IMG/VR virus record: IMGVR_UViG_3300032323_001460
Span: 1-27,669 of that record
Strand: one strand, 5' to 3'
DNA: 27,669 nucleotides
DNA from: a virus
The number at the start of each line of letters is the position of its first letter. Within the stretch, counting starts at the first letter, position 1. A program made the translations under genes and the position numbers. Under the pieces are notes generated by a model, which saw nothing but the letters and a program-made list of their open reading frames with translations, had not been told where the DNA came from and did no database searches. Positions 21,707 through 26,573 of the stretch are shown one piece after another.

Positions 21707-21776
21707 TTCCCTCCCCGTACCACCCCTCCAGTATACCACAGAACCACCGAAAAGTCAAGTAGTACCGCTGTGCGAC

Positions 21777-21794
21777 TGTTGCTTTCCTACAACA
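21777..21794 (+). repeat. Inverted-repeat element, copy 1 (TGTTG-N8-CAACA)
   Basis: TGTTGCTTTCCTACAACA, the first of three 18-base elements (also at 22629 and 26510), lies 29 bases before the -35 box of the promoter at 21824. The rest of the 152-base gap 21707-21858 holds no gene. Confidence 0.6.
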
Positions 21795-21823
21795 CCTCGA
21801 GGAATCAATAGGTTAGCAGAGGC

Positions 21824-21852
21824 TTGACAATTGCCTCATTTGGGCATATAAT
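21824..21852 (+). promoter_or_regulatory. Perfect-consensus sigma70-type promoter
   Basis: TTGACA at 21824-21829, 17 bases, TATAAT at 21847-21852. The start of transcription is expected at about 21859, the A of the GIY-YIG ATG, which implies a leaderless transcript. Confidence 0.85.
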
Positions 21853-21858
21853 GGCTAC

Positions 21859-22592: not shown

Positions 22593-22628
22593 GTGTTCAC
22601 TAACATTAGGCCTACGGAAATGCATAAA

Positions 22629-22646
22629 TGTTGTTTTCCTGCAACA
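22629..22646 (+). repeat. Inverted-repeat element, copy 2 (TGTTG-N8-CAACA)
   Basis: TGTTGTTTTCCTGCAACA lies 25 bases before the -35 box at 22672. It differs from copy 1 at two positions. The gap 22593-22735 otherwise contains only the promoter. Confidence 0.6.
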
Positions 22647-22671
22647 ATCCAAAAAAGATGGTTCCTGCTGG

Positions 22672-22700
22672 TTGACAATTCGGCATTCCTATGAGATACT
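22672..22700 (+). promoter_or_regulatory. Sigma70-type promoter
   Basis: TTGACA at 22672-22677, 17 bases, GATACT at 22695-22700. The region around the -35 box (GCTGGTTGACAATTCGGCA) is identical to that of the promoter at 26545. The leader before the ATG at 22736 has an AAGGA site. Confidence 0.7.
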
Positions 22701-22735
22701 ATCCATACTGAATGATTAATTGAAAAGGAAAAAAT

Positions 22736-23059: not shown

Positions 23060-23389
23060 ATGATGCTCGTTATCCGCACACAATACATGGAGAACTATGG
23101 CGCCCACGATTGGGATGGCCAAGGTGAATGTCCTCAGTATTGGAAGATGAAAGGTGGTAGCGAGTATAAGATTACCAATGTTCCGTTGAATATTGATTAC
23201 CAAGAGGTAGTCTCCATGGCGAATGTGGAGAAGGATAATGAATATTGCCGTGAGTATATCCTTGACTGGTCTATGGAAGCTGATGATTACCTCTCTTGGT
23301 TCGAAAAGAGCCAATTAGAATATGATGGTAGCATTGCTTGTAAAGAGCCCATCATAGAATATTCCGAACTCAATGGAGAATATGCATGA
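23060..23389 (+). CDS. Conserved phage protein (YMENYGAHDWDGQGECPQYW)
   Basis: A 109-aa protein whose N-terminus, VIRTQYMENYGAHDWDGQG then CPQYWKMKGG, is a sequence pattern I recognise in many unrelated phages, always without a function. The acidic middle and C-terminus follow. AAGGA lies 9 bases before the ATG at 23060; the next codon is also ATG. It is co-transcribed with the basic protein upstream. Confidence 0.7.
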   Translation: MMLVIRTQYMENYGAHDWDGQGECPQYWKMKGGSEYKITNVPLNIDYQEVVSMANVEKDNEYCREYILDWSMEADDYLSWFEKSQLEYDGSIACKEPIIEYSELNGEYA

Positions 23390-23403: not shown

Positions 23404-23472
23404 ATGAGCATCTGGCCAATCCTGAACCAGATTAGCGTATTGATACAAGGAAATATAGAATGGGAAAAATGA
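23404..23472 (+). CDS. Possible 22-aa microprotein
   Basis: A 22-aa frame (MSIWPILNQISVLIQGNIEW then EK), hydrophobic and mildly amphipathic, with GGAG five bases before the ATG. Its stop overlaps an in-frame ATG of the following gene. The good ribosome site argues for translation; size argues for caution. Confidence 0.4.
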   Translation: MSIWPILNQISVLIQGNIEWEK

Positions 23473-23612
23473 AAGAATTAGTAATGAGTATTTGTGAAGC
23501 CTATGATTATGAGGGCTTGACTATAATGGAACTAGCCAATCGATTTGAAATGACCGAGGCGGCTATCATAGAGGTGCTGACTAATTATAGCGACACTTTC
23601 GGAGTGGTATAA
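23460..23612 (+). CDS. 50-aa HTH-like small protein
   Basis: A 50-aa product with ICEAYDYEGLTIMELANRFE followed by MTEAAIIEVLTNY, matching a helix-turn-helix (T-x-x-ELA-x-RF-x-M...AIIEVL). AAGGA lies 8 bases before the ATG at 23460; the ATG at 23469 is an alternative. It could be a small DNA-binding regulator. Its TAA overlaps the -10 box of the promoter for the structured leader that follows. Confidence 0.6.
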   Translation: MGKMKELVMSICEAYDYEGLTIMELANRFEMTEAAIIEVLTNYSDTFGVV

Positions 23613-23613
23613 T
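23605..23613 (+). promoter_or_regulatory. Extended -10 promoter (TGG-TATAAT)
   Basis: TGG directly before a consensus TATAAT (23608-23613), with no good -35 box. Transcription would start at about 23620 and run through the structured region to the genes from 23779 onward. Confidence 0.55.
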
Positions 23614-23617
23614 ATAG

Positions 23618-23756
23618 GCGAAAAGTAGCGGTGGAACAGTCGGAAAAGGATTGTTAAAGTAGGTCTACTTTTGCTTAACAATCCATTCGCTGTCTCTTTT
23701 CTTAGGCAAATTTCGATTGCCTGGCTTCGGTTAGCCAAAAAAATTTTCCGGCCAGG
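23618..23756 (+). ncRNA. Candidate structured leader RNA with pseudoknot potential
   Basis: The 166-base gap has no ORF but dense complementarity. (1) GGATTGTTAA (23648-23657) pairs perfectly with TTAACAATCC (23675-23684). (2) Its loop holds CTACTTTTGC (23665-23674), which pairs with GC-g-AAAAGTAG (23618-23628), forming an H-type pseudoknot. A local AGTAG/CTACT pairing inside the loop competes. (3) GGCAA/TTGCC (23705-23721). (4) CCTGGC-tt-CGG (23720-23730) pairs with CCGGCCAGG (23748-23756). A ribosome site and a 30-aa gene follow at once. It could be a regulatory leader or a stand-alone RNA. Confidence 0.5.
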
Positions 23757-23778
23757 AAATCACTTATAGGAGTTGGTT

Positions 23779-23871
23779 ATGAATATCGAAGGTTTTCTAT
23801 TATACTATATTGTGCGACCGCTGATAATCGTGTTTGCCCTTATAGTTTTCATTTCTGGATTCTTTCTATGA
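23779..23871 (+). CDS. 30-aa membrane microprotein
   Basis: The 30-residue product is nearly all hydrophobic (FLLYYIVRPLIIVFALIVFI) and should span the membrane once. AGGAG is placed 5 bases before the ATG. Its stop overlaps the next ATG (ATGA). The first four residues, MNIE, and 13 bases around them are repeated at the start of the next gene. Toxic-peptide or membrane-stress functions are possible. Confidence 0.55.
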   Translation: MNIEGFLLYYIVRPLIIVFALIVFISGFFL

Positions 23872-25553: not shown

Positions 25554-26507
25554 ATGAGGAAACTCCTGATTGGATGCCTGTTCGTGGCATCCTCAGTATC
25601 AGCCCAAACTTTCACACCACTTGAATATGTCGCATTAATCTTCAAAGGCATCCAATTCTCCATGAGTGAATCGGTGCCCGAAGAAATCACAGTTACATCC
25701 AAAGGTGTTGGAAAAAATCAAAACGAAGCCGTTGAATCTGCATTAAATTCTGCGGTTCAGAAAGCGGTAGGTGTTTTGGTTCTATCTGACCAAACTGTAA
25801 GAAACGACCAAGTGATTCGAAACCTGGTGGCATCTTATTCTTCTGGCGTTGTCAATTCATATAAGATTGATAACTGCCAAAAAGATAAATCGGTGTCCTG
25901 TACCGTAACCGCAAAAGTTTCGCCATTGAAGTTTATGAGAAAACTACAAGGTGATTCACAAACGATACAGGTGAATGGTAGTGACTTGTTAATGAAACAC
26001 CAAACGGCAAAAACTGCCTTGATTCAAAGAGAAAAGGTAACTCAATATTACTTTTCTCAAATTCGGCAGTCCGGCCTGGATGTGATAATTCGAGAGGTCA
26101 AAGTTGTGCCATCGGATTCTCAATTGGTTCGCCTGATGGTTGATTACGAAGTCAAATGGAATCCTGAATACAAAAAGGAGATATTGCGATTTCTGCAACG
26201 GCTCGAAAAAGATTCTGCCAATGATGGCGGACACCAGGTATACATTCAATGGGCACCTACAGGTTTCTTTAACAACCGAGTGCATATTAACACCAACAAT
26301 GTTACCATGCAAAGGACAATGTTAAAGTATATGCACGAACCAACCTATGTTCGAATCAATGAGTTAGGACTATGCGAAGATATCGGCCACAATGAAGTCT
26401 TTACCATCGATTGGTATGGCGTTCGGAGACAGCGTATCCTTGAAGTGAGTCCTGACAAGTTGCGTGGAATTCAGTCTCTCTCGGCATCGATAGGATGCGC
26501 TTCCTAG
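25554..26507 (+). CDS. Exported FlgT-N/LPP20-like protein
   Basis: A 317-aa protein with a Sec signal peptide (cleavage after VSA at about residue 17). Residues about 45-130 (TVTSKGVGKNQNEAVESALN, then a VGVLVLSDQTV segment and YSSGVVNSYKI) match the N-terminal domain shared by FlgT-like and curli-associated (CsgG-neighbour) envelope proteins. The remaining ~185 residues are beta-rich with no known domain and include C295 and C315. No ribosome site is visible, so translation is probably coupled to the lipoprotein gene. It looks like a host-derived envelope module. Confidence 0.6.
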   Translation: MRKLLIGCLFVASSVSAQTFTPLEYVALIFKGIQFSMSESVPEEITVTSKGVGKNQNEAVESALNSAVQKAVGVLVLSDQTVRNDQVIRNLVASYSSGVVNSYKIDNCQKDKSVSCTVTAKVSPLKFMRKLQGDSQTIQVNGSDLLMKHQTAKTALIQREKVTQYYFSQIRQSGLDVIIREVKVVPSDSQLVRLMVDYEVKWNPEYKKEILRFLQRLEKDSANDGGHQVYIQWAPTGFFNNRVHINTNNVTMQRTMLKYMHEPTYVRINELGLCEDIGHNEVFTIDWYGVRRQRILEVSPDKLRGIQSLSASIGCAS

Positions 26508-26509
26508 AC

Positions 26510-26527
26510 TGTTGCTTTTTTGCAACA
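26510..26527 (+). repeat. Inverted-repeat element, copy 3 (TGTTG-N8-CAACA)
   Basis: TGTTGCTTTTTTGCAACA is the most symmetric copy, with 6-bp arms TGTTGC/GCAACA and a T6 loop. It lies 17 bases before the -35 box at 26545. A short TAGGA/TCCTA hairpin precedes it at the end of the previous gene. Confidence 0.6.
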
Positions 26528-26544
26528 CCAGCCAGGAACGCTGG

Positions 26545-26573
26545 TTGACAATTCGGCAGTCCGGGTATATAAT
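26545..26573 (+). promoter_or_regulatory. Perfect-consensus sigma70-type promoter
   Basis: TTGACA at 26545-26550, 17 bases, TATAAT at 26568-26573. Start of transcription expected at about 26580, giving a short 24-base leader to the ATG at 26604. Confidence 0.85.

Follow-up and report, generated by a model that had tools for sequence, protein, structure and literature searches.

The question raised by this locus is whether the gap between two small genes of an uncultured virus holds a structured RNA, as first proposed, or an element of another kind. The DNA analysed here (the window), 27,669 bases long, is a record from an uncultured virus, and its ribonucleotide reductase, PhoH, thymidylate synthase and primase genes are consistent with an origin from a T4-like phage, as we infer; no close DNA relative of the window was found among 50,697 phage records. 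The gap lies between a 50-aa ORF and a small ORF whose likely start codon is preceded by AGGAG. The initial annotation regarded it as a gene-free stretch with an extended -10 promoter at its start and a ribosome site at its end, both of which are seen in the sequence, and proposed that a perfect 10-bp stem, with its loop paired to an upstream strand, forms a pseudoknot. The stem is indeed present, with a loop of 17 nt, and so is the complementarity of the loop CTACTTTTGC to the upstream GC-g-AAAAGTAG (Table 1).

Table 1 Features of the conserved element and of the ORFs on either side of it in the window
Feature	Sequence	Position	Strand	Basis or conservation
Upstream 50-aa ORF, small HTH-like family		23460..23612	+	Element follows its stop codon in most members
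Extended -10-like	TGGTATAAT	23605..23613	+	Sequence; overlaps end of upstream ORF
Proposed pseudoknot strand	GCGAAAAGTAG	23618..23628	+	Only in window, L059, L084, L093
Block 1, B form	AACAGTCGGAAAAGGATTGTTAAAGTAGGTCTACTTTTGC	23635..23674	+	Alignment A1 of 21 members; model R1
Perfect 10-bp hairpin (arms 23648-23657 and 23675-23684)	GGATTGTTAA/TTAACAATCC	23648..23684	+	Few changes; conserved only in the window's clade
Block 2	TTTTCCGGCCAGGAAA	23744..23759	+	Single exact copy in window
Ribosome site and start codon	TATAGGAGTTGGTTATG	23765..23781	+	Conserved
30-aa membrane-like peptide, slot gene of the window's phage		23779..23871	+	ORF list

Taken from one sequence, these features could have arisen by chance. 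Counting loops of 3-40 nt, the window holds two perfect 10-bp repeats, against a mean of 1.5 (maximum 7) in dinucleotide shuffles, so the 10-bp stem alone is unremarkable, and the complementarity between loop and upstream strand was matched by 4.5% of shuffles of the upstream strand. Folding of the 191-nt region gave a z of -2.29; the 68-nt core reached -4.8, with a nearly equal value for the antisense strand (-4.3). The extended -10 promoter exists in the window and is not conserved in its relatives as a group, being kept as TGGTATAGT in L084 and L093 and absent from L059 (TTTTGCCTAGG). The part beyond chance is the conservation of the element across phages.

Judged by 23 distinct sequences from 29 contigs of uncultured phages, the gap holds a conserved, single-copy, non-coding element of about 165 nt that ends in a ribosome site. 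The alignment shows two shared blocks, about 105 nt apart and present once per record: block 1, ACAGTYGGAA..(GGAGTCCTCTA or GGATTGTTA)..AGCAGGTCTAC, and block 2, AAATTTTTTTYCGGCCAGGAA. Block 1 occurs in an A form (GGAGTCCTCTA) and a B form (GGATTGTTA, that of the window), and in most members it starts about 10-50 nt past the stop codon of the small HTH-like gene; block 2 was found once in each of 13 member loci. In about ten members the similarity takes in the ribosome site and extends as far as the start codon (GGAGTTGRTTATG), and this stretch is identical in L059, L093, L136, L138, L140, L350 and L354. Past this common ATG the genes differ, with at least 11 kinds of first gene. The first gene is an HNH endonuclease in L084, where it passes the Pfam cut-off, and in L141, where it falls just below.

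The orientation of the element is that of the genes in the members examined. In L102 the HTH-like gene lies one gene further off, in L141 none was found upstream, and the contigs of L143 and L151 contain only about 100 nt of upstream sequence. About half of the members (L102, L141-L155) have block 2 and the shared ribosome site only in part or not at all; in several of these a separate sigma-70-like promoter stands between the element and the gene that follows, with TTGACA/TATACT-like pairs in L141 and L142. A sigma-70 promoter scan of positions 23615-23779 of the window, + strand, found none. Downstream of block 1 in L144, L146, L150, L152 and L155, repeated units of about 60 nt (CCAGCRAAWTT..GCTTTT..GAGGATACTTACC) stand in the place of block 2.

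The members were collected by several searches. A scan for the stem brought in L001 and L002 through a different hairpin and not through the homologous site, which lies elsewhere in these contigs; there it follows a homologous 49-aa ORF and precedes a gene of another kind. Here the window and L002 align over 66 nt at 79% identity, and the element is one of only seven places of DNA-level alignment between the two. The second hairpin (L001 1652-1693, L002 2132-2173) has the 10-bp stem of the window, GGATTGTTAA/TTAACAATCC, lies about 1.1 kb from the homologous element and may be due to chance. Scans on the shared letters gave 21 distinct members, which make up alignment A1. Searched with R1, a model based on sequence alone, 25 records each held a single strong copy, among them a record of 171,728 bases, and the additional matches in two records were weak (E above 0.03); a multi-copy reading was rejected.

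Exact matches to stretches of block 1 brought in most of the members, so the conservation of this block is overstated. As a check on this selection bias, a scan was run with block 2 and the ribosome site and with block 1 left out. Five known members came back and two new, distinct members were added (L354; and L350, L351 and L356, which are alike), all with block 1 upstream; four other matches lack the element and are ascribed to chance. The new members retain GGAGTCCTCTA and AGCAG..CTAC, and the letters between ACAGT and GGAG are variable. We consider this recovery the least biased evidence of selection on the element. A relaxed block 1 pattern brought no new members, DNA and protein searches of cultured phages gave no relative of the element, and none of the loci reached through a 72-aa downstream protein matched it. 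In bacterial genome contigs there were 31 pattern matches, with only one weak, partial model match. L277 has the loosely similar AAGGAGTACTCTA after its HTH homologue, too little for it to be called a member.

The genes around the element were compared as well. An HMM of 13 upstream proteins, built from the members' own proteins and matched back to their contigs, gave E values of 1e-15 to 1e-24 in most members' contigs, and Pfam gave only a sub-threshold HTH match, in one member. The 30-aa peptide behind the element in the window had no PHROGs match. Seven records contain a tRNA cluster, and in all of them the element precedes it by 2.6-7 kb, on the same strand, a position that fits a hypervariable early region. 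The neighbouring gene at 23060-23389 of the window encodes a 109-aa protein that is very common, with at least 516 confirmed matches in uncultured viruses; it belongs to no PHROGs family, and no Pfam model matched it above cut-off. Its sole cultured match is phage C48C1, filed under Kyanoviridae, in which no match to the element was found; 7 of 80 loci with this upstream protein carry the element.

As for RNA structure, Rfam agreed with the initial annotation that no known riboswitch is recognisable: at gathering score, the window and the member loci had no match except tRNAs, and at E up to 10 there was only a sub-threshold HIV_FE match. The core folds far better than shuffled sequences in the window, L059, L084 and L093 (z -4.3 to -5.6) and moderately so in L102, L137 and L153 (z -2.1 to -3.2), and in most others it does not. 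Outside the window's clade the long hairpin is weak, shifted or absent, even where the primary sequence is kept, and RNAalifold predicted zero pairs on the alignment. The outer ACAG/CTGT and inner AGCA/TGCT pairs are mostly retained, and the middle stem re-registers. Compared by eye, L001 (A form) and the window (B form) differ by two pairs changed on both sides; in L136, L138 and L140 a B arm goes together with 3' arms better suited to A. An arm-swap test was neutral overall, with cognate arms winning in only about half of the members. Two smaller hairpins that had been described downstream exist in the window and were not borne out by its relatives: the GGCAA hairpin is broken in L059, L084 and L093, and the 9-bp GC stem CCTGGC..GCCAGG is lost in L093 and absent from more distant members. 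RNA pairing is plausible in one clade and unproven for the whole family, and what stands of the proposed structured RNA is the conserved non-coding element, its pseudoknot being unsupported by the relatives.

The reading we favour, tentatively, is that the element acts in cis as an intergenic leader cassette, about 165 nt long, and would provide shared expression signals for a slot of exchangeable genes upstream of the tRNA cluster. The cassette would span from just after the stop codon of the small HTH-like gene to the start codon of the next gene, and would be transcribed as the leader of the slot gene. T4-like phages swap many small genes of unknown function. The loss of conservation beyond the start codon suggests that there is a docking site, where each incoming gene would receive the same leader, hairpin (in some clades), A/U-rich stretch and ribosome site; new genes could thereby enter the slot and be expressed as soon as they arrive. 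The long stable hairpin that block 1 forms in the window's clade could insulate or protect the mRNA. The leader reading is weakened by the partial or missing block 2 and ribosome site in about half of the members, by the different upstream neighbour in L102 and its apparent lack in L141, and by a structure that is not conserved family-wide. If it is true, such slots and the genes they carry could be traced in metagenomes by using the element as a DNA tag.

Other readings that treat the stretch as RNA fare less well. For a riboswitch-like pseudoknot with an alternative hairpin, complementary strands do exist in the window, L059, L084 and L093, but they are invariant there, with no compensatory change, and the upstream strand is absent outside these four. 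One partner alone changes elsewhere: the loop becomes CTACTATTG in L147 and L153 and the upstream CAAAAG does not follow, and the upstream strand becomes CAATAG in L137 and the loop does not follow. The competing hairpin within the loop, which could have made a switch, was not upheld either, as AGTAG/CTACT occurs only in the window and the other members have AGCAG or more divergent letters. No ligand-binding or switch signature was found, and the downstream genes are mutually unrelated, unlike those of a metabolite switch. A free-standing riboswitch-like RNA is also doubtful because the element includes the ribosome site and reaches the start codon, and we consider this reading very improbable. 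The element might instead yield a small phage RNA of about 140-160 nt, transcribed from the extended -10 promoter, that acts in trans on RNAs of the host or the phage. The single copy, the partial independence from flanking genes and the stable hairpin of the window's clade would agree with this. Such a small RNA is nevertheless unlikely: the promoter is not conserved, a terminator was looked for and none was found, no complementary site of at least 11 nt occurs elsewhere in the window, the conserved stretch runs into the ribosome site, and there is no family-wide structure. Slightly less likely still is an undescribed RNA element of T4-like phages in which the conserved 5' arm would pair with either the upstream strand or the 3' arm and so gate the interchangeable gene slot.

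A short coding sequence, started by the AAGGAG/ATG of L140, L144, L152 and L155, was rejected and has hardly any likelihood left. These four have ORFs of 31-69 codons beginning MKVY, but the ATG is missing from the other members, the frame is broken by TAG or TAA in the window (an in-frame TAG just before GTCTAC), L059, L084 and L093, it ends after six codons in L146, and there is no conserved peptide. The main rival to the leader reading is a role at the DNA level, as an operator, a replication-related site or a recombination joint read as double-stranded DNA; the shared blocks might then be sites where homologous recombination swaps the flanking genes. Primary sequence is better conserved than pairing, there is one copy per record, HNH endonuclease genes follow in L084 and L141, and the B-type 5' arms with A-fitting 3' arms in L136, L138 and L140 look as they would after recombination. 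There is also an excess of contig ends close to the element (9 of 25 within 1.2 kb, p 0.002), but this signal becomes marginal after removal of near-duplicates (6 of 20, p 0.03). A pure DNA site, moreover, leaves unexplained why the similarity extends over the ribosome site and ends at the ATG. We regard a DNA element as possible though rather unlikely.

Among the known systems closest to the element, the T4 gene 32 mRNA operator consists of a pseudoknot and an A/U-rich leader, and the element resembles it in the order of a structured stretch, A/U-rich sequence and ribosome site (PMC3014915). The differences are that a pseudoknot is unsupported here and that short unrelated ORFs, not gene 32 (ssDNA-binding protein), stand behind the element. 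The stable RNAs rnaC (species 1) and rnaD (species 2) of T4 are likewise non-coding phage sequences near a tRNA cluster, but they directly follow the tRNAs and the element precedes them; R1 had no match in the T4 genome, where BLAST gave only matches of 5-7 nt. The PeSL (promoter early stem-loop) elements, reportedly described by Arbiol et al. in 2010, are said to be mobile regulatory cassettes of T4-type phages. Like them, the element is an intergenic module with a stem-loop in some members, lies at a place of gene content exchange and would give different genes the same expression signals. It differs in being present once per record, where several copies per genome would be expected of PeSL elements, and in apparently having no early promoter built in within the window's clade. 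The cassette would work like these T4-type promoter/stem-loop cassettes and yet be a different, single-copy module. The window also has three separate PeSL-like modules elsewhere (21774-21855, 22626-22702 and 26507-26570), in each of which a stem-loop (TGTTG..CAACA) comes before a promoter with TTGACA and either TATAAT or GATACT, and the three precede different small genes.
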